Assembly: GCF_000332075.2 (NCBI RefSeq)
Contig: NZ_ALVU02000001.1
Coordinates: 1,569,193 to 1,633,192 of the forward strand
From: Synechocystis sp. PCC 7509
GTDB lineage: Bacteria; Cyanobacteriota; Cyanobacteriia; Cyanobacteriales; Chroococcidiopsidaceae
Direction: 5' to 3'
Length of the DNA: 64,000 bases
The translations under genes and the position numbers were made by a program. The notes beneath the pieces are model-generated. The model did not search any database. It saw only the letters and a program-made list of their open reading frames with translations, and had not been told where the DNA came from. This document shows positions 9,092 to 22,152 of the stretch, piece by piece (positions within the stretch are counted from its first letter, which is position 1; each line of letters starts with the position of its first letter).

Positions 9092-9305
9092 AGTTTTTGC
9101 TTGTTACTACCTAAAAAGTGGTTTTTGCATAAAACTGTTTTTTTTAAAAGGCGATCGCATTTCCAGAGCAGTTTATCATCGCGGCTACGGCTGATTGCTA
9201 GTAGCCTCCTTCACCTTAATGATGAGAAAAAATCGCTTTCTAGCTATAGCTCAACGGTGCTGTGTCAAAATGACTGTAAAAGTAATTCCTTCCTAAACCC
9301 CAATC

Positions 9306-10013
9306 ATGGCAGATACTACTCCAAATAATTCCCCTGAAGAACAAGCACCGACTGGGAAAACTGCGGGAGAAAATGCCCCACCAAGTACCGTAGACCAGCA
9401 AGCTCCAAGTATAGTTGAGGAGCATCTTCATAGTACATCCGAGGCAGAGGCTACCGATATTCCTACTGCCAATGCGCCCGATCCTACGGCAGTAGATCCT
9501 GAAATTAATCCTAACGCCAGCAAAGAAAAACCCACCTCCGAAGCTTCTACTCCTGACGAATCCGCCTCCCAAGCTAAACCACCCAAAAAGAGCGCCCCCG
9601 CCGACAAAGCAGATTCACCCGCCGCCAAAAAAGAAAAAGCTCCCGCCGTTGAAGACAAGCCTTTTGCGGAATTTGTACAGCAACACTATTTACCAGCATT
9701 GCAAAAAGCCTTCGCAACTCAAGGAGTACCAGAAGCAAATTTAAAGTTTGAAAAACAAAAAGTTGCGATCGCAGGTTATGATTCTAGCGAGTGTTGGCAA
9801 GTCAAAGGCAGCTTATACAACGGTTTGCGTCAATTTAGCGTTTATTTCCCTCAAGAAAATATCCAAGGACAAAGAGCTTTTTCCTGTAACGAAGGCTCTA
9901 AACCAAGTACCCTAGAATCGTTTTTGATTGACGAGCGCAAAGTAACTTTAGATTTGCTAGTATTTGGCGTAATTCAGCGCTTAAATGGTCAAAAATGGCT
10001 GGCAAGAAACTAG
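9306..10013 (+). CDS. DUF2996 family protein with long disordered N-terminus
   Basis: 235 residues in two parts. Residues 1 to about 115 are low-complexity, rich in Ala, Pro, Glu, Ser and Lys (for example KAPAVEDKP), and should be disordered. From PFAEFVQQHYLPAL to the end is a compact domain that I recognise as DUF2996, a cyanobacterial family of unknown function. It has no signal peptide or membrane segment. The stop overlaps the stop of the convergent TM2-domain gene by 4 bp. No good ribosome site is visible at the ATG, but upstream starts are not evident. Confidence 0.7.
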   Translation: MADTTPNNSPEEQAPTGKTAGENAPPSTVDQQAPSIVEEHLHSTSEAEATDIPTANAPDPTAVDPEINPNASKEKPTSEASTPDESASQAKPPKKSAPADKADSPAAKKEKAPAVEDKPFAEFVQQHYLPALQKAFATQGVPEANLKFEKQKVAIAGYDSSECWQVKGSLYNGLRQFSVYFPQENIQGQRAFSCNEGSKPSTLESFLIDERKVTLDLLVFGVIQRLNGQKWLARN

Positions 10014-10519
10014 CTCAATTCTAAAAAGTGATAGATAACCACTCCAGTATCGGGGTGGTTGTCTATTGCTACATAACCAGTTTTCAGCATTTCTCTTAAA
10101 GTTGCTTCAACTTCAGCAAAACTAGCTTCTGTATCCATGACAGCTTGAGTAACGGAGAGCTTTCCTCCTCTACGCTCCGCCGCTAGAAGCAATTTCATCA
10201 TTAATTGCGATCGCGTATATTTGGAACTAATAACGCTACTAGCAACTACAGGCTGATACAACGGAATCCCAACTTCCGATACTCCTAATCTGGCTCGTAG
10301 TTTTGTATTATGCTCGTCTACCATATTGGGAATCAACAATAAATCTACTAATTGTCCAACCCCAAATAAACCCAAAGTGCAAAGCCACAACAAACCTGTA
10401 AAAACTTTGCCATTGTACAACCGATGCAATCCATGTAACTGTAGTAAGCAAGCAAGCCAGAGAAAATAAGCGCTGGATACTTTCGTCTCTGGCGGTGTTG
10501 GTGGTTCGTGGTTCATCAT
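10010..10519 (-). CDS. TM2 domain-containing protein
   Basis: 169 residues. The first half holds two hydrophobic segments joined by a short polar turn (YFLWLACLLQLHGLHRLYNG, then GLLWLCTLGLFGVGQLVDLL), the TM2-domain arrangement with its aromatic/glycine-rich pattern. The second half (from about residue 100) resembles a small winged-helix-like region: KLLLAAERRGGKLSVTQAV and an ATLREML helix. Function is unknown. The gene is convergent with the DUF2996 gene, overlapping it by 4 bp at the stops. Confidence 0.75.
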   Translation of the reverse strand: MMNHEPPTPPETKVSSAYFLWLACLLQLHGLHRLYNGKVFTGLLWLCTLGLFGVGQLVDLLLIPNMVDEHNTKLRARLGVSEVGIPLYQPVVASSVISSKYTRSQLMMKLLLAAERRGGKLSVTQAVMDTEASFAEVEATLREMLKTGYVAIDNHPDTGVVIYHFLELS

Positions 10520-10763
10520 TTAGCTGCCTAAAATTAGCGCTTGATAGATATATTTTCGCGCTACTGCTTCTTTAGTGACAACACATATTTGGGCTTTAGT
10601 TCCGATATCAGTTAAAGATTAGTTACAAAATTTGCCTCAATGTTGCAACTCTTAACGTAATAACTGAGAAACTTCGCCTTTAGGATTGCTAAACTAAATT
10701 CCATAAAGAGCGTATTTGCAGCATTAGCACGCTACCTTTCGTCAAAAGAGATTAAAAAAAGAC

Positions 10764-11840
10764 ATGGTAGATTCCCTCAAAAAACCGAGCTTTGAAGAAA
10801 TGCGTCCGGGGGTAAAAGTCCCCTCCAAGGAAACCCTACTTACACCTCGGTTTTACACCACCGACTTTGAAGAAATGGCGCAAATGGATCTCTCGGTAAA
10901 TGAAGCCGAGCTAAGAGCGCTGTTAGCAGAATTTCAGACAGATTACAACCGCACTCACTTTACCCGCGATGCCGAATTTGAGCAATCTTGGGAACATATA
11001 GACGGCGAAACTCGCCAAGTATTTGTAGAATTTTTAGAACGCTCTTGTACGGCGGAGTTTTCGGGCTTTTTACTTTACAAAGAACTCAGCCGTCGCTTAA
11101 AAGACAAAAACCCTCTACTAGCGGAGTGTTTTAACCTCATGTCACGCGATGAAGCGCGTCATGCTGGCTTTTTAAATAAGGCGCTATCAGACTTTAATTT
11201 GTCGTTAGATTTGGGATTTTTGACGAAAAGTCGCAAATATACCTTCTTTAAGCCTAAGTTTATCTTCTACGCCACTTATTTATCCGAAAAAATTGGTTAT
11301 TGGCGATATATCTTGATTTACCGTCATTTAGCCGCTCATCCTGAAGATCGGATTTATCCTATATTCCGCTTCTTTGAAAATTGGTGTCAAGACGAAAATC
11401 GGCACGGCGACTTTTTCGATGCGATGATGAAGTCTCAACCCAAAATGTTGAATGATTGGAAAGCTCGGTTGTGGTGTCGGTTCTTCTTGCTGTCAGTATT
11501 TGGGACAATGTATCTCAATGATATTGGGCGCTCGAAGTTTTATGCAGCCATTGGTCTAGACGCGCGCGATTACGACAAGCAGGTAATTGAAAAGACTAAC
11601 GAAACGGCTGGGCGAGTGTTCCCGGTGATTTTGGACGTTAAAAAGCCAGAATTTTATGATCGCCTAGAAACTTGTACTCAGAATAACGATAAATTGAGTG
11701 CGATCGCTAGTTCCTCTACTCCCAAGTTTCTGCAACTATTCCAAAAACTGCCTTTATACATTTCTAATGGTTGGCAATTTGTGCGCCTGTATTTTATGAA
11801 ACCTATTGACATGGCTTCTGTGCAAGGTAAAGTTCAGTAA
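10764..11840 (+). CDS. acsF: Mg-protoporphyrin IX monomethyl ester oxidative cyclase
   Basis: A 358-residue aerobic cyclase that forms the fifth (isocyclic) ring of chlorophyll, turning Mg-protoporphyrin monomethyl ester into divinyl protochlorophyllide with O2. The ferritin-like di-iron ligands are visible: SRDEARHAG (Glu130, His133) and CQDENRHGD (Glu211, His214). The N-terminal stretch [11 protein letters not shown] and the length agree with cyanobacterial AcsF/ChlE. The first ATG fits the family N-terminus. A 244-bp region separates it from the divergent TM2 gene. It acts at the thylakoid or plasma membrane. Cyanobacteria often carry two copies; only this one is in the window. Confidence 0.95.
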
Positions 11841-11858
11841 ATTTTAACCGTTTGGTGC

Positions 11859-11895
11859 TATGAGTGACTTTGCTTGAAGCGGAGTCACTTTTTTT
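11859..11895 (+). terminator. putative rho-independent terminator after acsF
   Basis: AGTGACT and AGTCACT form a 7-bp stem (11861-11867 and 11883-11889) and are followed by a run of T residues. The position, 20 bp after the acsF stop, fits a transcription terminator. Confidence 0.6.
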
Positions 11896-11914
11896 TGGGA
11901 ATTTACGCTAAATA

Positions 11915-12571
11915 ATGAATTATTGCCTATTTGCTTTGATTTCTACAAGTCTTTGCTTGCCTATGGCTGTTAAAAGTGCGCCACTACCAAGTACTGCTAA
12001 AGATTTAAGTATTGAAAATAGCCCAGTTTTTCAACGTTGGCAGCGTCAAATACCAAATATTTTAGAAGATATTAAAAACGATCCTAGTTTTCGGACTCGT
12101 TTGCGGCTAGGTTACAATCTTTTTTCCACCGAAAACGGCGTAAATATTGGCGTAGAAGATGTATTTATAGGGCGAAGCAGGTTAACAGTCAGTGGAGAGT
12201 ATCAGCAAGCTTTTAGAGGGGATAATACTAGCTATGGTGGCGATTTGCATTACTACTTGCGTCCTTTGGGTAGCTATGTAAATATTGCGCCGCTTGTAGG
12301 CTATCGGCATCTGCAAAAGGACGAATATTCACTAGATGGCGTTAATGTTGGTGCGAGGTTGCTATTAGTATTATCTCGCGGCGGTGCGGCAGATATTGCT
12401 TTAACTCAAAGCTGGGTTTCTCCCGGTACGGCGGAGGAAGTGGGATTAACTACACTTTCTTTTGGTTATGCTGTTACTTCCAATTTGCGATTATCTACAG
12501 ATATTCAAAAGCAAAACTCTAGGCATAGTAAAGATAATCGGGTGGGAATTGTTTTGGAGTGGATGCCTTAA
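11915..12571 (+). CDS. exported protein, putative beta-barrel, unknown function
   Basis: 218 residues. It begins with a short signal peptide (MNYCLFALISTSLCLPMAVKSA) and continues with FRTRLRLGYNLFS, RLTVSGEYQQAF, VNIAPLVGYRHL and LRLSTDIQKQN: alternating polar/non-polar stretches with aromatic ends, as in small outer-membrane barrels. I do not recognise a named family. The final GIVLEWMP ends on an aromatic strand, as barrels often do. It lies 74 bp after acsF on the same strand, and the gap holds an AGTGAC/GTCACT hairpin with a T-run (a likely acsF terminator), so it is probably transcribed separately. Confidence 0.6.
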   Translation: MNYCLFALISTSLCLPMAVKSAPLPSTAKDLSIENSPVFQRWQRQIPNILEDIKNDPSFRTRLRLGYNLFSTENGVNIGVEDVFIGRSRLTVSGEYQQAFRGDNTSYGGDLHYYLRPLGSYVNIAPLVGYRHLQKDEYSLDGVNVGARLLLVLSRGGAADIALTQSWVSPGTAEEVGLTTLSFGYAVTSNLRLSTDIQKQNSRHSKDNRVGIVLEWMP

Positions 12572-12681
12572 AGTAATAAAAGTGCGATCGCTCAATACGC
12601 AATCTAGGTAAAATACTACCTAATTTTTAGTTGGCTGAATTAACCCACGATGATTTGACTTCTAGCAATTATGTTATGCTC

Positions 12682-12717: not shown

Positions 12718-13157
12718 ATGATTCCACCATTTAATTCCAATGGTAACCTGCCACCAGGAATTCATTTTTGCTCCTGGGAAGAATTTGTAGCGCGATTTGG
12801 AAGTATACAATATCGGTTAAACCTGATAGCAGGACTCAAAATTGCAATGGAACAGTTACAGACAGCAGGTTGTTCAACTATTTATATTGATGGCAGCTTT
12901 GTAACTAACAAGTTAATTCCAGGTGACTTCGATGCGTGTTGGAGTGGCAATGGTGTGGATATGAACAAGCTAATATCTATTGCTCCTACTTTGATCGTAA
13001 GCGTGAGGCTCAAAAAGCTGAATACGGAGGAGAATTTTTCCCTGCTGAGTCGGAAGCGGATGGCGATGAAACTCATTTTCTAGAGTTTTTTCAAAACGAC
13101 AAAGATAGAAACCGAAAAGGGATAATAGCTATAGATTTATTGAAGTGGCAGCCATGA
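12718..13157 (+). pseudogene. DUF6932 family gene, frameshifted (toxin-antitoxin-like)
   Basis: Two overlapping frames together make one DUF6932-type protein of about 147 residues. Frame 1 from 12718 gives MIPPFNSNGNLPPGIHF, then YIDGSFVTNKLIPGDFDACW, the typical first half. The second half lies in another frame: FDRKREAQKAEYGGEFFPAE, then THFLEFFQNDKDRNRKGI, ending at 13157. The change falls at about 12990-12994 in a TTT run; one extra T there would restore the frame. GSFVTxK and GDFDACW resemble the nucleotidyltransferase-type core. A sequencing error, a real mutation or -1 slippage would all look like this. GAGGAG directly abuts the ATG, and the stop overlaps the next ATG. Confidence 0.7.
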
Positions 13158-13642
13158 TTAAGAATGAGAGACAGTACCGTATTACTAAGGCTCAAGCGCA
13201 AAAGTTTCAGCAAGCACTGACAAAACTGACAGAATACTCAGAAGAAGCAAAACAGGTCAATCCCTTGTTATGGCAAGCTAAGAAGTCAGCAATAGAAAGT
13301 CAGTTAAATGAATTGCAGGAGGAAATTAAGGAGTACGAAAGACTTGCTAAAAGTTCTTCTAGTAAGTCGATAGCGTTAGCAGGTGGATCGATAGAAGCAT
13401 TACCAAAAGCTTTGATTGAAGCGCGTATAGCTGCGAAAATCAGCCAGAAAGAATTAGCTGCTCGACTGGGAATTAAAGAACAGCAAATCCAGAGGTACGA
13501 AGCGACAAACTATGCCTCTGTAAAACTGTCACGAGTTATAGAAGTAAGTCAAGCTCTTGATATTAAGTTGCCATCTATAAGAAGAATGGTAATAGCGAAG
13601 TCAAAAAAACTCCCTTCTAAAAGACTGGAACGTTCAGTTTAG
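13154..13642 (+). CDS. XRE-family HTH protein, partner of the DUF6932 gene
   Basis: 162 residues from the ATG that overlaps the DUF6932 stop as ATGA; a GTG nine bases upstream is less likely. The N-terminal half is a charged helical, probably coiled-coil region (KFQQALTKLTEY through ELQEEIKEYERL). The C-terminal half is a Cro/CI-type helix-turn-helix: ARIAAKISQKELAARLGIKE then QIQRYEATNYASVKLSRVIE. Pairs of a DUF6932 gene followed by such a regulator are seen in bacteria as toxin-antitoxin-like modules. The XRE protein would be the antitoxin and autorepressor (inference). The inverted repeat upstream of the pair is a candidate operator. Confidence 0.75.
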   Translation: MIKNERQYRITKAQAQKFQQALTKLTEYSEEAKQVNPLLWQAKKSAIESQLNELQEEIKEYERLAKSSSSKSIALAGGSIEALPKALIEARIAAKISQKELAARLGIKEQQIQRYEATNYASVKLSRVIEVSQALDIKLPSIRRMVIAKSKKLPSKRLERSV

Positions 13643-14031: not shown

Positions 14032-14934
14032 ATGTACACTCCCGAACAACTTAGCCAACTTTTTGACGAAGAGTCTCTTCGGTATATACATAACAAAAAT
14101 AGAGGTGGTAGTAGTGCAGCAAAAGGCAATACCTATGAAAACTTTTTTGCTATTTATCAAATAGCTCTGCGATCGCAACAAGTAATTGAAAGCAACAAAG
14201 AAATCATACTTTCAAGCCAGATTGTTGCTTTTGTTGAGGACTTGATCGTTGATTGCCAAGATGCAAATCCCCTCCAACACTATCAATTAAAAAATAGTGA
14301 AAATGAAAGCTGGGGACAAGGACTGAGAAGTATATCTGATGATTTTATAAAACAATACGATCTCAATAGGTCTATATCCAAACAATCACATATTTACTTG
14401 GTTGTTTCTTCTCGAATACTCAAAAATAAATTAGAATCAACTATGCCCTTAGCTATTCAGAAATATAGCCAAGTAATTTATTTTTCTTACGATGCCGAGC
14501 TAGTCAAGTTAATTACGTTAGAACCTGAGTTTCAACAAGCTATAGAGTATCTCAGTGCTTACGATCGACCTGCTCCTGATAAGATTGAGTGTGTAGCAAA
14601 GGTACTACTGGGCGCGTGGGCTTCTAGCGCTAAAACACAAGTATCTATTATGGAGATACTAAAAAAAGCTCAAGATATGACTCCCTGCTTCATCCGCTCG
14701 TTTAGCAAGGATTTGAAACTAGATCCTGCTGTTGAAAATATTTTAGCTAGTATCGCTGATTTTACCTATAATTTGACAAAGGGTTTTCTATATTGGCAGT
14801 TCAAAGATGGACTTATGGAGGGTACGTTACCTTTTAGCATGGAGACAAGCCAGTTCAAACAATTCCAAGAACTCCTAAAGAAAAATCCTCCAACTTGCTT
14901 TGAGGAACTTGAGGTTTACTTACCTATTGATTAA
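14032..14934 (+). CDS. DUF4297/Cap4-like putative nuclease
   Basis: 300 residues. RGGSSAAKGNTYENFFAIYQ (24-43), then VEDLIVDCQ (68-76) and YQLKNSENESWGQGLRSI (84-101), is the pattern of restriction-endonuclease-fold proteins of the DUF4297 / Cap4 N-domain type: a glycine/lysine entry motif, Glu36, Asp70 or Asp74, and Gln85-x-Lys87 as the PD-(D/E)xK-like core. Residues from about 130 on are helical with no domain I recognise. Such nucleases act in phage defence and plasmid restriction. One base separates its stop from the next ATG, so the two proteins are probably made together. Family assignment is by motif only. Confidence 0.6.
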   Translation: MYTPEQLSQLFDEESLRYIHNKNRGGSSAAKGNTYENFFAIYQIALRSQQVIESNKEIILSSQIVAFVEDLIVDCQDANPLQHYQLKNSENESWGQGLRSISDDFIKQYDLNRSISKQSHIYLVVSSRILKNKLESTMPLAIQKYSQVIYFSYDAELVKLITLEPEFQQAIEYLSAYDRPAPDKIECVAKVLLGAWASSAKTQVSIMEILKKAQDMTPCFIRSFSKDLKLDPAVENILASIADFTYNLTKGFLYWQFKDGLMEGTLPFSMETSQFKQFQELLKKNPPTCFEELEVYLPID

Positions 14935-14935
14935 T

Positions 14936-15634
14936 ATGACGAGAAGCTATTCAAACCTCGTAAATGAAAATATCAAAGATTTGCTCGGCATTCTAGCCGA
15001 TAAAAATGTTGCACCCGATATTTACAAAGATACGATGACTAAGCTTGGTATGTTTTTGGGTAATGCAATTCTAAATCATATCGACAAAGAGCATTGCAAT
15101 GTTTACCTTGCTTGCACCGTTGAGGATGCGGATTTTCTTAGCTTAGGAATGCTCTTAACTCTAGAAAAAAAAATTAAAAAAGTTGGTTTCGCCTGTTTTT
15201 GGAATCAGCGTTTTTCACCTTTTGAAATTGAAGATATAAAAGTAGCGCCAATTTTAAAAAAATACCAAGAACCAGCAAACCTACCTACCAATTATTTGAT
15301 TATTGTAAAATCAATCATTTCTGGAGCTTGTATAGTGAGAACAAACCTTACTGATTTAATTCAAAAAATTGAACCTGAGAAAATATTTATAGCTGCTCCA
15401 GTAATATATGTAGAAGCAGAACAGAAACTTAAAAATAGCTTTGAAAAACCTATATATGATAAATTTAATTTTTTCTACTTTGCTAAAGATGATAGGCGCA
15501 CAGATGACGGTGAAGTAATCCCTGGTATTGGTGGAAACGTTTACAATCGGCTCGGTTTTGATGGACAAGATTCTAAAAATAAATATATTCCTGAAATTGT
15601 TAAAGATAGGCGCTCTAAATTCATAAAAAGTTAG
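14936..15634 (+). CDS. degenerate uracil-phosphoribosyltransferase-like protein
   Basis: 232 residues from the ATG one base after the previous stop; an upstream TTG inside that gene is less likely. The fold signs of uracil phosphoribosyltransferase are visible: a C-terminal GEVIPGIGGNVYNRLGF (192-208) parallels the PGLGDAGDRLFGT tail of Upp, and LIIVKSIISGACIVRTNLTD (121-140) occupies the place of the PRPP loop. The acidic and small residues of that loop are replaced (KSIISGA), so classical salvage activity is doubtful. It may bind a nucleotide ligand as a sensor for the upstream nuclease (inference). Codon use is AT-rich, like its partner. Confidence 0.55.
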   Translation: MTRSYSNLVNENIKDLLGILADKNVAPDIYKDTMTKLGMFLGNAILNHIDKEHCNVYLACTVEDADFLSLGMLLTLEKKIKKVGFACFWNQRFSPFEIEDIKVAPILKKYQEPANLPTNYLIIVKSIISGACIVRTNLTDLIQKIEPEKIFIAAPVIYVEAEQKLKNSFEKPIYDKFNFFYFAKDDRRTDDGEVIPGIGGNVYNRLGFDGQDSKNKYIPEIVKDRRSKFIKS

Positions 15635-15706
15635 AGTGTATATCTCAAAAATTAGAGATTTATGGCGAAACAGTGATGAAGTGCGATCGCGCTACAAAAA
15701 AGCTGC

Positions 15707-16627
15707 TTAACCGAGATAAAATATAGTTGCAATGCCAAAAATTGCTACTCCTGCCCCTAAAATTGCTCTAATACTAGGCTTTTCTCCAATAAAAACAGAA
15801 ATTGGCAAGATAAATATTGGTGCAGTATTGGTTAAAGTTAAAGCAATTCCTACCTCTGTAAATTTGATTGCTGTTTGCTGCAACCAAATTCCTAAATAAG
15901 TCCCCATAAAAGCAGCTAACCCAATCCCTGCAAAAACTCGTGGCGTTGGCTTGTAAGCAAAACTATTTTGTTGAAGGCGTAAAAATGGTAATAAACTAAC
16001 AACTGCGGCACTTATCCGCAGTAATGCCGCCCATAGAGGAGAAATACTGTTATTGGCGATCGCCGCCCGCGCTAAAATCCCCCCAATTGCTAAAGAAATC
16101 GCGGCAATTATGCCAAATATAATTCCTTTACGCAGATATACGGGGCGACCTTCGGTAGCTGGGGTACGTTCGGTTACAACCCAAGCAACTCCGGCAACTG
16201 TTAATAAAATACCACCCCAAACACTAGCTTTTAAACGTTCTTGTAGAAAAATTAGTGCCAAAATTGCTGTAATGGGCGGGGCTAAAGTTTCCATTAATAA
16301 AGCACGACGCGCACCTAAACAATTTAACGCTGCAAAAAATGCCGTATCGCCTAAACCAATGCCGATACTACCGCTTAGTAATAGTAAGCATAAGTTAGTT
16401 GCTGATACAGTAGGGAATAACTCGCCACGCACTAATAAAGTTAAACCTAGTAAAATAATTGCGATCGCGCCTTTAAATAAGTTTAAGTACATTGGTGAAA
16501 TTTCTCTCCCCAAACTCCCATAAATCACCGACGACACCGCCCAAAGACTTGCAGCACTGAGCGCGGCGATTTCTCCTGGATACTTTACTAGCCAAGAACT
16601 TGATATCTGTTCTATTGCGATCAACAT
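15707..16627 (-). CDS. EamA/DMT family transporter
   Basis: 306 residues with ten predicted membrane segments in two five-helix halves, the drug/metabolite transporter arrangement. The first half includes AALSAASLWAVSSVIYGSLG and METLAPPITAILALIFLQERL; the second repeats it with TLTNTAPIFILPISVFIGE. The P-I-(I/T)-x(6)-(F/E)-x(2)-E ends of helices 4 and 9 are typical. Substrate unknown; family members move amino acids, nucleosides or other small metabolites. It stands alone, divergent from the urt operon. Confidence 0.85.
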   Translation of the reverse strand: MLIAIEQISSSWLVKYPGEIAALSAASLWAVSSVIYGSLGREISPMYLNLFKGAIAIILLGLTLLVRGELFPTVSATNLCLLLLSGSIGIGLGDTAFFAALNCLGARRALLMETLAPPITAILALIFLQERLKASVWGGILLTVAGVAWVVTERTPATEGRPVYLRKGIIFGIIAAISLAIGGILARAAIANNSISPLWAALLRISAAVVSLLPFLRLQQNSFAYKPTPRVFAGIGLAAFMGTYLGIWLQQTAIKFTEVGIALTLTNTAPIFILPISVFIGEKPSIRAILGAGVAIFGIATIFYLG

Positions 16628-16786
16628 TTAGCTAAGTACAAACATTTATGCATTGGTAAAAATTAAGTGTAATTTTACTAAATTATTTTGGGTATTCTTA
16701 AGCTGGACATGGTTTTGTTTATTAGTCTGAACGCCTGAATTTACCGACGAGTTTACGTTGAAAATAGACTAAATCTTTAATAAAAT

Positions 16787-16800
16787 GTATCCAAAGTAAC
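16787..16800 (+). promoter_or_regulatory. weak candidate NtcA site
   Basis: GTAtccaaagtAAC matches the NtcA consensus GTAN8TAC except for one base. The urt operon is NtcA-controlled in other cyanobacteria. The -10 element expected about 22 bp downstream is imperfect (TAATCC), so this is only a candidate. Confidence 0.25.
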
Positions 16801-16946
16801 AACACAGATAAAAAATTTTGTGGTAATCCTAACACTTAAGTTTAATAAGGCGTTGTAGTGAACCAAGGTCAAGGATCGAAAAAGTGTTGCTATTGCTAGG
16901 TTGTCAGACACAGTTAGTTTGGTTTGGAGATTAGAAGTTACTTATA

Positions 16947-16969
16947 AGTTTGAGATAAAATCTCAAACT
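16947..16969. promoter_or_regulatory. perfect palindrome in the urt leader region
   Basis: AGTTTGAGAT, three A residues, ATCTCAAACT: a 10-bp perfect inverted repeat 130 bp upstream of the urtA ATG. No T-run follows, so a terminator is unlikely. It could be a regulator site or a structured 5' leader. Confidence 0.5.
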
Positions 16970-17099
16970 CAATTAGTTTAGCCCCGTCTGACTACCGATA
17001 ATAAATCTATGGAATTAGTTTACGACCAACTAGAAAAACTTAGCCATAGCACCTATTTTGTAAAGCCTAGTGAAGGCAGATAAAGGAGAGTTTAATTTA

Positions 17100-18488
17100 A
17101 TGACATCGCGCGAACCCATAATTATCGTTGGTGGCATCAATCGCCGTAAATTTATCAAGTATGGCTCGTTAGCCCTTGGTAGTGGCGTGCTTGCAGCCTG
17201 CTCTGGTGGCGAACAGCCTTCAGCCCAAAGCCCCGGTAGTGATGCTAGTCCCGCCGCTTCTGGGGGCGATGGCATCAAAATTGGAGTGATGTATTCGACG
17301 ACTGGAACAATCGCCATTGTGGAGAAGTCTTTGCAGGATGCTACTTTTCTAGCGATCGATCAAATTAATGAAGGTACAGGCCCTTGGAAAGGTGGAAAAG
17401 GGATTAAGGGTAAACAGTTGCAACGAGTCGTAGTTAACCCCGATTCTAACTGGGACTTGTACAACCAAATGTCCAAACGCTTAATTGATGAAGATAAAGT
17501 TGCCTGCGTTTTAGGTTGCTATACTTCCGCAAGTCGTAAATCGGTACTACCAGTTTTTGAAGAAAAAAACGCCATCCTCTATTACCCGGTTTACTACGAA
17601 GGTAATGAATGCAGTTCTAATGTATTCTATACGGGTGCTGCACCCAACCAACAAATTACCGATTCTATTCCTTATTGTGCCAAAAACTTTGGCAAAAAAG
17701 GCTTTTTCATTGGTTCAGATTACATTTATCCCAAAGAAAGCAACCGCATCGCTAAAGCAGAATTAGTTAAATCTGGCGGTGAAGTTGTTGGGGATGAGTA
17801 CGCGGCTTTGGGAACTACCGAATTTATTACTATTATTAATAAAATCAAGCAAGCAAAGCCAGATTTTGTTTTGAGTAACTTAGTCGGTGACAGTATTCCA
17901 GCTTTTTACAGACAGTATAAGGATGCTGGGATTACTTCGGCGGACACTCCGATTATGGCTTACCCCACTACTGAAGAAGAAATTCAAGCGATGGGTCCAG
18001 AATACGCGGAAGGTCACTACAGCAGCTTTAACTACTTCCAAAGTGTAGATACGCCAGAAAATAAGGCATTTGTGGAGCAGTTTAAGGCAAAATTTGGTCA
18101 AGATCGCGTAACGAATGGCGTTATGGAAGCGGCTTATTTGCAAACTTTCTTTATGGCGCAAGCAATGGAGAAATTACTAAATGAAGGCAAAGAAATTACT
18201 CCTGACAACTTACGGGAAGCAACTCGCGGTCAAGTTTTTAATGCTCCCCAAGGTACAGTAAAGAGTGATCCCGATAACTACCATACTTACTTGTATTCAA
18301 GAATTGGGAAGTGGAAAGCTGATGGTCAAGCAGAGATTGTATTTGCCACCCCGGCGGCGGTGAAACCGATTCCTTGGAGTCAGGCACTTTACAAAGGTCG
18401 TACTTGCGTTCATGGTTCGCCTGATGGGCGTACTAACTCAATTAAAGAAACAGGCGCAGACTTAAAAGTTGAGTACCTGAAGATTTAA
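17100..18488 (+). CDS. urtA: urea ABC transporter substrate-binding lipoprotein
   Basis: 462 residues from the ATG that follows AAAGGAGAG; an upstream in-frame GTG precedes that ribosome site and is rejected. The N-terminus carries a twin-arginine-like signal (NRRKFIKYGSLALGSG) ending in the lipobox VLAAC, so the protein is probably exported and lipid-anchored. The mature part (KIGVMYSTTGTIAIVEKSL, NQITDSIPY, YSSFNYFQSVDTPENKAF) is the UrtA type of periplasmic amide-binding protein. It captures urea for UrtBCDE. It is the first gene of the operon, and a hairpin follows its stop. Confidence 0.93.
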   Translation: MTSREPIIIVGGINRRKFIKYGSLALGSGVLAACSGGEQPSAQSPGSDASPAASGGDGIKIGVMYSTTGTIAIVEKSLQDATFLAIDQINEGTGPWKGGKGIKGKQLQRVVVNPDSNWDLYNQMSKRLIDEDKVACVLGCYTSASRKSVLPVFEEKNAILYYPVYYEGNECSSNVFYTGAAPNQQITDSIPYCAKNFGKKGFFIGSDYIYPKESNRIAKAELVKSGGEVVGDEYAALGTTEFITIINKIKQAKPDFVLSNLVGDSIPAFYRQYKDAGITSADTPIMAYPTTEEEIQAMGPEYAEGHYSSFNYFQSVDTPENKAFVEQFKAKFGQDRVTNGVMEAAYLQTFFMAQAMEKLLNEGKEITPDNLREATRGQVFNAPQGTVKSDPDNYHTYLYSRIGKWKADGQAEIVFATPAAVKPIPWSQALYKGRTCVHGSPDGRTNSIKETGADLKVEYLKI

Positions 18489-18505
18489 GTAGTTAGACTA
18501 ACTTG

Positions 18506-18537
18506 AAATCTCTAATCTTTAAACAGGTTAGAGATTT
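18506..18537 (+). terminator. hairpin between urtA and urtB
   Basis: AAATCTCTAATC and GGTTAGAGATTT form a stem of twelve pairs (one G-T) with an 8-base loop, 17 bp after the urtA stop and followed by TTA. A partial terminator or a 3' end stabiliser would give more UrtA than membrane components, as is common for binding proteins. Confidence 0.65.
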
Positions 18538-18566
18538 TTACTAATTTAATCGGGCAATAATTTGTA

Positions 18567-19514
18567 ATGTATTTATCCATAATTGAATTACTAGCACAAG
18601 CTCCTACTGCCAAAAGCTTAGATTTAGTAACCTTTACTAACCAACTTCTGAATGGAGTTGGTATTGTGGGAGTTTTATTATTAACGGGGTTGGGATTAGC
18701 GATTACTTTTGGAGTGATGCGAATAATTAACCTAGCTCATGGTGAATTCATCATGTTAGGCGCATACACTACTTTTGTAATGCAATCCACTTTCAAGATG
18801 GATTTAGTGCTAACTATTCCTTTTGCTTTTTTATCTACAGCAATTATTGGGGCAATTATTGAGCTAACTATAATTAGGCGGCTTTACGGTCGCCCTTTAG
18901 AAACTTTACTTGCCACTTGGGGTTTAAGTATTGTGCTTCAAGGAGTTGTTAAATTAATTTTTACAGCGCAGTTAAAGTATGTAAAAGCTCCCCGTTATAT
19001 ATCAGGAAACTTAAACGTATTTACTAGCGCCGATGGTGGGTCAAGTATTACAATTTCCTACTATCGTTTGTTTATTGTAGCGATCGCATTAGGGCTACTA
19101 GCACTGACAGCTTACTTACTTTACGGTACGGCTTTAGGGCGACAAATTCGCGCTGTGACTCAAAATCGAGATATGGCGAAATGTTTGGGCATTAATACAA
19201 GTTTCGTTGATATGGTGACCTTTGCCTACGGTTGCGGACTAGCGGGGGTTGCTGGTGCGGTACTTTCTTCGCTAAAAAGCGTTGCGCCACCAATGGGACA
19301 AGATTATTTAGTTGATGCTTGGATGGTAGTTGTAACCGGCGGTGTAGATAAGCTAGTTGGAGTTTTGGCGGGAGCATTTTTAATTGGCGAATCGAACGCA
19401 GCGATCGCATTTTTGCTTAACGATCCTTTAGCGCGAGTGATCGTATTAGCGGCGGTAATCATCTTAATTCGCTATCGTCCTGAAGGCTTGTTTACTGTCC
19501 AAAAACGAGCTTAA
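18567..19514 (+). CDS. urtB: urea ABC transporter permease UrtB
   Basis: A 315-residue LivH-type inner-membrane permease with about eight membrane segments. LGLAITFGVMRIINLAHGEF and MLGAYTTFVMQ at the N-terminal third and GVLAGAFLIGESNAAIAFL near the end are typical of UrtB. It pairs with UrtC to form the urea channel. It lies 78 bp after urtA, with the hairpin between them, and 35 bp before urtC. Confidence 0.93.
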   Translation: MYLSIIELLAQAPTAKSLDLVTFTNQLLNGVGIVGVLLLTGLGLAITFGVMRIINLAHGEFIMLGAYTTFVMQSTFKMDLVLTIPFAFLSTAIIGAIIELTIIRRLYGRPLETLLATWGLSIVLQGVVKLIFTAQLKYVKAPRYISGNLNVFTSADGGSSITISYYRLFIVAIALGLLALTAYLLYGTALGRQIRAVTQNRDMAKCLGINTSFVDMVTFAYGCGLAGVAGAVLSSLKSVAPPMGQDYLVDAWMVVVTGGVDKLVGVLAGAFLIGESNAAIAFLLNDPLARVIVLAAVIILIRYRPEGLFTVQKRA

Positions 19515-19549
19515 TTATTAAGTTGTAAATATTTAGAGCAAATAAGCAA

Positions 19550-20626
19550 ATGACTGATGTATTAGGGGGCGTTCAACGGGCTACTATTCCTGTTAAGTTG
19601 TTGGTAACAACGGGAATTATTCTTTTACTATTTATAATTTTGCCTTTTGTATTAGGAGAATTTCAAACGGCTTTAATGGCAAAGCTGTTATTGTTTGGGA
19701 TTTTAGGGATTTCTCTAGATTTAGTTTGGGGATTTACAGGCATTTTGAGTTTTGCTCACGGGGTTTTCTTTACCCTTGGTGGTTACGCTATGGCGTATTA
19801 TTTAAAACTCAATTTGTCATCAACGGCAAATACTTACGGCGGCGAATTGCCGGACTTTATGGTGTGGAATGGGTTAAAAGAATTACCTTGGTTTATTGCC
19901 CCATTAAAGTTTTTTCCCATCGCCGCCATTGCTACAATTGCTGTACCCGCAGCTTTTGCTTACATTATCGGTTGGTTTATTTTTCGCTCTAAAGTGAGCG
20001 GAGTTTACATCACTATTATTACTTTAGCGATCGCATCGGCATTAACTACATTTTTTGTCAGCCAGCAAGCTTTCACGGGTGGGACGAATGGCATTACTGA
20101 TGTTTCTCGTCTCAGTTTTTTTGGTGTAAATATTCCCTTAATAGGTTTGTATTACATCATTCTTGGTTTTACTACTTTAGTTTTATTTGGTAGTTGGTTA
20201 CTGACAAAATCTAACTTTGGCTTAATTTTGCGATCGATTAAAGAAAACGAGCAACGAATTTCTTATTTAGGTTACGATGTCGCCAGCTTCAAGATTTTTA
20301 TTTGGACACTATCGGCGGGTATAGCAGGTTTAGCTGGGGGATTATTTGTACCGCTAAATAGATTTATTTCTCCAGTATATTTAGCCGTAGCTTTTGGTAC
20401 GCAAGTTGTGATTTGGGTAGCAATTGGTGGGAGAGGAACTTTAATTGGCCCGATATTTGCGGCTATTTTACTAGGTCAAGTTCAAAACTACGCCGAAAGA
20501 GTAACCCAAGATTGGCAATTAATCGTGGGCATTTTGTTATTAGTTGTCGTGCTATTTGTCCCGGATGGCTTAATGAGTTTAATTCCCAAAAAATTCAACT
20601 TATTAAACACCCGCAACAACCAATAA
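19550..20626 (+). CDS. urtC: urea ABC transporter permease UrtC
   Basis: A 358-residue LivM-type permease. LLFGILGISLDLVWGFTGIL, then SFAHGVFFTLGGYAMAYY, is the signature of this half of the channel, and QAFTGGTNGITDVSRLSFFG fits UrtC. About ten membrane segments. The start is an ATG 35 bp after urtB. Length matches cyanobacterial UrtC (about 360-390 residues). Confidence 0.93.
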   Translation: MTDVLGGVQRATIPVKLLVTTGIILLLFIILPFVLGEFQTALMAKLLLFGILGISLDLVWGFTGILSFAHGVFFTLGGYAMAYYLKLNLSSTANTYGGELPDFMVWNGLKELPWFIAPLKFFPIAAIATIAVPAAFAYIIGWFIFRSKVSGVYITIITLAIASALTTFFVSQQAFTGGTNGITDVSRLSFFGVNIPLIGLYYIILGFTTLVLFGSWLLTKSNFGLILRSIKENEQRISYLGYDVASFKIFIWTLSAGIAGLAGGLFVPLNRFISPVYLAVAFGTQVVIWVAIGGRGTLIGPIFAAILLGQVQNYAERVTQDWQLIVGILLLVVVLFVPDGLMSLIPKKFNLLNTRNNQ

Positions 20627-20708
20627 AAGCAGTGAATTTATCATGTAACAATTGCAACAAAAAACAACTTCAATTCATGCTACTGTAACCAAAAACTATA
20701 AAACCAAT

Positions 20709-21464
20709 ATGAATACAATACTTGCTGTTAAAGACTTAAAAGTAGTCTTTTCAGGATTTCAAGCTCTCAAAGGAATAAATTTAGAAGTCGGCGAACGAGA
20801 AATTGTCACGATTATCGGCCCGAATGGTGCGGGGAAAAGTACGCTTTTAGATGCAATTGTTGGTAAGTCTCCAGTAGCTTCTGGTCACGTATACTTTCGC
20901 GGTAAAGAAATTACTAATAAAAATCGTTATGAAATTGCGCGTATGGGAATTGGACGTAAGTTTCAAAATCCAAATGTTTATAACGATCTAACAGTATTTG
21001 AAAATATCTTATTAGCACTTAAAGGAACTCACTCAGTTTTAGCTTCAATTAAATCGAAGTTAACGAGAGTAAAAAAAGCAAAAATCGAAGCAGTTTTAGA
21101 ACGAATTGGGTTGTTAGATAAAGCTTATACCAAAGTTTCATCGCTTTCTCACGGACAGAAACAATGGGTAGAAATTGGCATGGTAATCGCTCAAGATCCA
21201 ACAGTGGTATTGTTAGATGAACCAACGGCGGGGATGACTTCCGACGAAACCCATTTGACAGGAGAAATTATTAAATCTATCTCCGAAGATCATTCCGTAA
21301 TAGTAATTGAGCATGATATGGAATTTGTTAAGCAAATTGCTCAAAAGCTTGTAGTTTTACATCAAGGCGAAAAACTAATTGAAGGATCGGTTCAAGAAGT
21401 TCAAAATAATGCACAAGTTATCGAGGTTTATTTAGGTCGTGAACGAATTGATGTCGCTGCTTAA
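20709..21464 (+). CDS. urtD: urea ABC transporter ATP-binding protein UrtD
   Basis: 251 residues from ATG 20709 (MNTILAVKDLKVVFSGFQAL), which matches UrtD N-termini; a longer frame beginning at a TTG 57 bases upstream is unlikely. Walker A GPNGAGKST, signature LSHGQKQWVEIGM and Walker B VVLLDEPTAGM are all present. The LSHGQKQW signature is characteristic of the LivG/UrtD branch. It energises urea uptake with UrtE. Its last 14 bp overlap the urtE start. Confidence 0.92.
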   Translation: MNTILAVKDLKVVFSGFQALKGINLEVGEREIVTIIGPNGAGKSTLLDAIVGKSPVASGHVYFRGKEITNKNRYEIARMGIGRKFQNPNVYNDLTVFENILLALKGTHSVLASIKSKLTRVKKAKIEAVLERIGLLDKAYTKVSSLSHGQKQWVEIGMVIAQDPTVVLLDEPTAGMTSDETHLTGEIIKSISEDHSVIVIEHDMEFVKQIAQKLVVLHQGEKLIEGSVQEVQNNAQVIEVYLGRERIDVAA

Positions 21465-22152
21465 GCTTACAGATGTATCGGCGGGTTACGGGCAAACTCC
21501 TGTTTTAGTTAACGTCAATATGGTAGTAGAAAAAGGAGATATTGCTTGCATATTGGGTCGCAATGGTATGGGAAAAACTACCCTTTTGCGGAGCATTATT
21601 GGTTTAAATAAAGTTATTAAAGGCGATATCGTTTTTGATGCGGATGATATAACTAATATCCCAACTTATAAGAGGTCGCGTTACGGGATTGCTTTTATTC
21701 CCCAAGGGCGCGAAATTATCCCTTATCTGTCGGTTTTAGATAACTTAAAATTGGGATTAGCCGCGAGTAAGAAAAAACTCAAGAAAATACCCGATGAAAT
21801 CTTTGAGTTTTTCCCCATGCTAACGCAGCATCTCAAGCGCCAAGGGGGATTACTAAGCGGTGGACAACAACAGCAACTAGCGATCGCACGGGGGCTAATG
21901 TGCGACCCCCAAATTATGCTCTTAGACGAGCCTACCGAAGGCATCCAGCCCTCTATTGTCCAAGAAATAGATGAAACCCTAAAACGAATTAATCGTGAAA
22001 AAGGGATAACTTTATTGGTGGTAGAACAAAAAATCGATTTTGCCAAACAACTAGCGCAAAAGTTTTTTATTATGGAGAAAGGGGCGATCGCTGCAAAAGG
22101 TAACACTAGCGATCTGACAGATTCCTTGGTACGGCGATATTTGACTGTTTAG
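21451..22152 (+). CDS. urtE: urea ABC transporter ATP-binding protein UrtE
   Basis: 233 residues from ATG 21451 (MSLLKLTDVSAGYGQTPVL), inside the end of urtD; a GTG 12 bases upstream is possible but less like the family. Walker A GRNGMGKTT, signature LSGGQQQQLAIAR and Walker B IMLLDEPTEGIQPS fit the LivF/UrtE branch. Last gene of urtABCDE. A palindrome (22215-22242) and a strong bidirectional terminator (22285-22323) follow. Confidence 0.92.
   Translation: MSLLKLTDVSAGYGQTPVLVNVNMVVEKGDIACILGRNGMGKTTLLRSIIGLNKVIKGDIVFDADDITNIPTYKRSRYGIAFIPQGREIIPYLSVLDNLKLGLAASKKKLKKIPDEIFEFFPMLTQHLKRQGGLLSGGQQQQLAIARGLMCDPQIMLLDEPTEGIQPSIVQEIDETLKRINREKGITLLVVEQKIDFAKQLAQKFFIMEKGAIAAKGNTSDLTDSLVRRYLTV

Follow-up and report, generated by a model that had tools for sequence, protein, structure and literature searches.

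Cap4-type nucleases occur in CBASS, Lamassu, Avs and HerA-DUF4297 systems. Nucleases of the Cap4/DUF4297 type are activated by ligands or by partner-driven oligomerisation (PMC11291478; PMC10586767). Proteins of the phosphoribosyltransferase (PRTase) family have been described in defence and conflict settings as well, namely in DprA-PRTase (PMC9122126), the type III retron (PMC12548924) and Ter systems (PMC5512222), and the PRTase has been suggested there to be an effector or a nucleotide maker. Here, a two-gene unit from Synechocystis sp. PCC 7509 was analysed, in which a predicted nuclease (protein A) is followed by a protein with the fold of uracil phosphoribosyltransferase (UPRTase; protein B). 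The observations concern the folds and remote homology of the proteins, the conservation of their motifs, the pairing and co-divergence of the genes, their mobility and defence neighbours, and B genes that are orphaned or borne by phages. We give about an even chance to the view that A-B is a mobile module, either for defence or of a toxin-antitoxin-like kind; A would be a DNase held inactive by B, and phages would escape by carrying B alone.

The window (the whole stretch of DNA analysed, 64,000 nucleotides) contains A and B as two intact open reading frames, head to tail on the forward strand with one base between them, exactly where the initial annotation had placed them (Table 1). The assignment of the locus to an accessory island was borne out by a same-genus genome (G814), which matches the window at 88–89% over 9225–12618 and 15663–22151 and carries approximately 1.7 kb of other DNA in place of the intervening segment. 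At the spot of the A-B pair, G814 encodes a 394-aa protein with an HSDR_N (type I restriction) domain (L139:7487-8671), which suggests that nuclease-type genes are swapped at this site. The neighbours that had been read as a toxin-antitoxin-like pair are present as an HTH gene (13145–13642) and, upstream of it, a DUF6932 gene (12718–13157, forward strand; PF22014, E = 6e-28, covering the first 88 residues only), but the latter is distributed over two frames (12718–13083 and 12936–13157) and is therefore probably broken.

Table 1 Features of the A-B locus, in window coordinates
Feature	Position	Strand	Description
Gene A	14032..14934	+	300 aa; predicted PD-(D/E)xK nuclease of Cap4/DUF4297-like type; C-terminal half family-specific
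Gene B	14936..15634 (ATG 14936, stop ends 15634)	+	232 aa; UPRTase fold, PRPP site remodelled
Gene B, proposed role			Restrainer/antidote or sensor of A
A Glu36 codon	14137..14139	+	Helix 1, candidate catalytic acid; E in 30/30 rows covering the column
A Asp70 codon	14239..14241	+	Candidate catalytic acid; D in 31/31 rows; aligns with D of Cap4 'HHED'
A Gln85-x-Lys87 codons	14284..14292	+	Predicted QxK catalytic motif; Q85 and K87 in 31/31 rows; aligns with Cap4 'QVK'
B residues 61-66, T-V-E-D-A-D	15116..15133	+	Probable place of the PRTase pyrophosphate-binding loop, from strand/helix order
B residues 125-132, K-S-I-I-S-G-A-C	15308..15331	+	Replaces UPRTase PRPP loop D-P-M-L-A-T-G-G
B residues 196-207, PGIGGNVYNRLG	15521..15556	+	Retained uracil-site-like tail
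Variable segment	12618..15663	n/a	Contains A-B pair, HTH gene and broken DUF6932 gene

For protein A, the proposed restriction-endonuclease-type motif set was traced through the family alignment. E36, D70 and the QxK at 85–87 are fully or almost fully conserved (counts in Table 1), together with Q63, F67, W94, D104, F105 and Q108, whereas D74, which had been counted among the motif residues, varies across the family. The AF2 model (pLDDT 91.5) was searched against the PDB with Foldseek and gave a sole match below 0.001, LmuA of Lamassu (9nxx; E = 1.1e-4, probability 1.00, 280 columns, TM 0.36/0.29); restriction enzymes, other LmuA structures and, weakly, HerA-DUF4297 stand lower in the list. 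Because the TM score is low (0.36), the likeness to LmuA is one of the core and not of the whole chain. Thirteen Cap4/DUF4297 sequences were collected from loci in cyanobacteria, proteobacteria and plasmids; profile against profile, A was matched to them at E = 3.5e-4 (reverse direction 1.2e-3), with D70 and Q85-x-K87 in register with the Cap4 D and QVK. A plain sequence search of the PDB returned no match to A, the C-terminal half matches nothing known, and the PADLOC LmuA model met one A member at E = 0.0096, which is below threshold. A nuclease core in A, as first supposed, is well supported, since the structural match to LmuA, the in-register Cap4 alignment and the conservation of the motifs come together. 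The label 'DUF4297-like' holds with regard to the Cap4 alignment but not at the level of the Pfam family, as the window protein does not reach the PF14130 gathering cut-off and the best of 31 A members has E = 0.065; judged from sequence, A appears to be a remote member of Cap4/DUF4297, below the Pfam cut-off.

The AF2 model of B (pLDDT 89.6) has a strand at residues 55–61 followed by a helix at 64–79, and its top 26 PDB matches are UPRTases or structural-genomics entries of UPRTase fold (E 6e-11 to 2e-7; TM 0.66–0.69 for the best at E = 6e-11). A profile of 38 B proteins found the Sulfolobus UPRTase at E = 2e-4 and, in profile-profile comparison, cyanobacterial Upp at E = 1.2e-7 (3.1e-6 in the other direction), so that the phosphoribosyltransferase fold ascribed to B was upheld by structure and by profile alike. 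In the alignment with Upp, K125-S-I-I-S-G-A-C-V lies over D-P-M-L-A-T-G-G-S. The PRPP loop D-P-M-L-A-T-G-G is absent from the B family, K-S-I/V-I-x-x-x-C being found in 38/38 rows, with K125, S126, I128 and C132 invariant at the site. T61, E63, D64, A65 and D66 are likewise invariant (38/38), and residues 61–66 would, according to the model, fall where PRTases bind pyrophosphate. At the C-terminal end, the tail PGIGG...RLG is kept (P196, G197, G199, G200, Y203 and R205 in all 38 rows), but without the Asp that comes after PGxG in Upp. The initial annotation's description of a protein with a conserved UPRTase tail and a lost acidic PRPP loop was therefore confirmed.

Because the PRPP aspartate and the TGG phosphate loop are lost, UPRTase activity of B is very unlikely, and from its sequence B is almost certainly not a UPRTase. 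Identity of B with the Upp of the host was ruled out, as a canonical Upp is present elsewhere in the Synechocystis sp. PCC 7509 genome. On the other hand, a dead relic would not require replacement residues as conserved as these, which argues that the pocket or surface of B has a job. This job could be new chemistry, with the rebuilt UPRTase site making or destroying a nucleotide signal that controls A: T61, E63, D64, D66, K125, S126, C132, Y203 and R205 are conserved in 38/38 rows in the manner of an active site, with a Lys in place of the PRPP Asp, an acidic E-D-A-D at the presumptive place of the pyrophosphate loop and an invariant Cys. Binding of a ligand or contact with A could also account for this conservation, however, and to our knowledge no PRTase works with this set of residues, so that we regard an active enzyme as decidedly improbable.

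When the two window proteins were compared with Pfam, NCBIfam, PADLOC and PHROGs, neither had a match above threshold, and B left a weak sub-threshold UPRTase signal (E = 0.01); both are without a name in these libraries because no match exceeds a curated cut-off. Neither A nor B was found in the INPHARED phages. Among open papers (a scope outside which subscription papers, preprints and supplementary tables fall), none was found that links a phosphoribosyltransferase to DUF4297 or phage defence systems to UPRTase. The initial annotation named no described system for the pair, and the combination is indeed absent from the libraries and open papers searched.

Among 386 cyanobacterial genomes, B is present in 8 (one of these has an additional weak match, which is its real Upp) and intact A in 5, each time with B directly after it (5/5). 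A tblastn search of plasmids found A and B side by side in plasmid pA of Chroococcidiopsis sp. CCNUC1 and among the few cargo genes of the 10.4-kb Geminocystis plasmid pGM3709_06. With the B profile, 40 loci were found in 84,980 species genomes; most are cyanobacterial, and the other hosts include Marinobacter, Neptuniibacter, Methyloprofundus, Nitrosomonas, Paraburkholderia and a Bacteroidetes MAG. In 321 genomes sampled from the Marinobacter class, the pair was present in the centre genome only, and the module is accordingly rare in that class.

A survey of how often the two families co-occur, as had been recommended, gave a clear answer: at 34 loci, a full-length B is immediately preceded, in the same orientation, by a full-length A (at least 250 aa), a pairing far beyond chance. 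The genes overlap by 4 bp (ATGA) in 24 of the 34, and the distance matrices of A and B over these loci are correlated with r = 0.94, a value reached in 0/2000 permutations, or 0.91 when only deep pairs are used. For paired genes, dN/dS is 0.12–0.20 in B and 0.11–0.21 in A, indicating purifying selection on both. No conserved third gene stands beside A-B, the next commonest cluster (integrases among those checked) occurring at 9/52 loci; as no other gene family recurs, the A-B pair is taken as the functional unit. A metabolic or repair pair with no function in conflict would agree with the descent of B from a salvage enzyme, but hardly with the patchy distribution (8/386 cyanobacterial genomes), the mobile contexts, the lost PRTase residues and the canonical Upp in the same genome, and we consider it very improbable.

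The closeness to known defence genes, whose examination had also been advised, was likewise evident. At least 17 loci lie near RM, DruE/DpdE/DrmMI, BREX, DISARM, DSR2 or PifA genes (a raw count, with no background rate), and RM, Druantia/DISARM-like and BREX genes often stand beside A-B; several of these neighbours are directly adjacent and in the same direction. Type I RM genes are near the pair at L017, L037, L039 and L043, type III RM genes at L047 and L048, DSR2 at L049, BrxHI at L026, DrmB at L031, and PifA and a GajB-like helicase at L054, besides others. Three loci (L010, L020 and L025) have DruE-, DpdE- and DrmMI-like genes beside A-B, and a related helicase is found at L014, L015, L027 and L057. 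In the former three, A-B is flanked by DpdE/DrmD- plus DrmMI-like genes on one side and a DruE-like helicase of ~1700 aa on the other; this composite defence island matches no single named system.

The two genes are not lost symmetrically. When 386 cyanobacterial genomes, plasmids and viral contigs were searched with A, every intact A proved to be accompanied by B; the large genome scan was led by B and would under-count loci with A and a broken B. Isolated A fragments without B (L077, at G129:C11:83236-83460, and L076, in G366) are remnants of decayed copies. Intact B was found next to an A remnant (L014, L015), next to a split A (L022) and next to an A cut by IS-like inverted ends (L036). 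At the two ends of the L036 contig (8879-9457 and 120-533), inverted sequences resembling one another (GGYTCTTCCGAACTT) are present, a pattern expected if an insertion sequence had been collapsed by the assembler. At L017, L024, L035, L039 and L043, B is intact and A absent from the locus, and no A was found elsewhere in the genomes of L017, L024, L039 and L043. Between the orphan B genes of L039 and L043, dS is about 0.5 and dN/dS 0.215, similar to paired B genes; since these orphans are still under constraint, B has value without A.

B was further found in five viral contigs, one of which also holds A. In the tailed-phage contigs L061–L064, L142 and L143 (the last two belonging to longer contigs of 77.9 kb and 16.2 kb), B follows a tRNA-Tyr gene and A is reduced to approximately its final 25 bp; matches to phage tail tape-measure, tail, Rha/antirepressor and RecT families lie nearby. 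In L061:7869-8705 and L064:765-1604, tRNA-Tyr precedes the A remnant and B by ~20–25 bp, and a tRNA-Met gene follows further on. The place at tRNA-Tyr may be used by the phage for cargo exchange; integration there was considered for the phage contigs, but neither an empty site nor a second junction turned up. The phage-contig B genes differ from the B of the plasmid-like L036 at 1–3 of 705 nt, and in L064 B is shared at 3 nt, yet parts of its flanks are only 73–90% identical to those of L060. The latter contig has A and B together beside the same phage tail gene and is the only viral contig in which A was found. It could be a genuine hybrid, but also a chimera of the assembly, since the near-identical B of plasmid and phage offers a point at which an assembler may have fused the two; for this reason it was not counted as proof that phages carry A-B.

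Plasmids and islands might instead use A-B as an addiction module that has no direct part in anti-phage defence. This reading would be in keeping with the pair on plasmids, with its place in the window beside the HTH/DUF6932 pair and with the decay of A where B is retained. The frequent closeness to RM, Druantia/DISARM-like, BREX and DSR2 genes and the B genes in phages speak against it, and we hold it to be improbable. It differs from defence by a restrained nuclease in selection only, not in biochemistry.

In the favoured mechanism of a restrained nuclease, A would be a Cap4-type DNA nuclease dangerous to the cell, and the pseudo-UPRTase B would bind A and keep it inactive. A nucleotide or phosphoribosyl compound that changes on infection might, more speculatively, loosen the hold of B through its remodelled pocket, so that infection, or loss of B, would free A. 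By analogy with Cap4/DUF4297 nucleases, the freed A would cut DNA, and either the infected cell would die or the phage genome would be destroyed; phages bringing their own B alone would be spared. The contact between A and B, the inhibition, its trigger and the anti-phage effect are what we infer from the observations above. A narrower proposal, which we put forward only tentatively and consider somewhat less than likely, is that a UPRTase-fold pseudoenzyme, possibly with a charge-inverted PRPP site, acts as a ligand-tunable antidote of a Cap4-like nuclease and that cyanophages carry B alone as anti-defence.

A restrainer or antidote is preferred over a pure activator because orphan B is under selection, phages have B without A, and no intact A without B was seen. 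Several points count against restraint: an antidote is usually encoded before its toxin, and the order of A and B is the opposite; orphan B could persist through a job unrelated to A; and the Cap4 likeness of A falls short of the Pfam cut-off, with a C-terminal half that has no known match. Alternatively, B could be a sensor-activator: once bound to a nucleotide or a phage product, it would assemble A or switch it on, and A alone would be weak or inactive. Cap4 is switched on by second messengers in CBASS and DUF4297 by HerA (PMC11291478, PMC10586767), B has an invariant pocket, which a pure plug would not need, and A is first in the operon. A phage would gain nothing from an activator, though, and phage contigs carry B without A; moreover, orphan B is maintained and intact A without B was never seen. 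We therefore judge an activator to be unlikely, while taking it seriously.

If the restrained-nuclease module is real, it would add a compact defence or toxin-antitoxin unit to the Cap4 nucleases, with a salvage-enzyme fold turned regulator, and would tie nucleotide-pool sensing to nuclease control with neither a cyclic-nucleotide cyclase nor an ATPase. Phage capture of the regulator alone, out of a system of two genes, could then be studied on a concrete and testable case. New in this analysis are that no intact A was found without B, that B stays intact and selected without A, and that phages have B without A.

Compared with described systems, A resembles Cap4/DUF4297 (PF14130) in having a helix with a conserved acid, followed by D and QxK on successive strands, but its partner is a UPRTase-fold protein and not an ATPase or cyclase, and its C-terminal half is unmatched. 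For Lamassu (LmuA-LmuC-LmuB), LmuA is the best structural match of A, but at a TM of only 0.36, and the A-B loci have neither the SMC-like LmuB nor LmuC and only A and B recur. Assignment to Lamassu or another ABC three-component system was ruled out, as there is no conserved ATPase neighbour. B shares with Upp (PF14681) the fold, the N-terminal helices and the PG(I/L)G tail, but D-P-M-L-A-T-G-G-S has become K-S-I-I-S-G-A-C-V and PGxGD has become PGxGG. Like the PRTases of DprA-PRTase, the type III retron and Ter, B is a PRTase-superfamily protein in a small conflict operon; it is set apart, by the descriptions of those systems and not by sequence, in being UPRTase-like, without the PRPP residues and paired with a nuclease. 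Finally, A-B is like two-gene toxin-antitoxin systems in its overlapping two-gene operon (34 loci) and in an antidote-like gene that also occurs alone and in phages, and differs from them in that the proposed antidote, B, follows A in the operon and folds like an enzyme.
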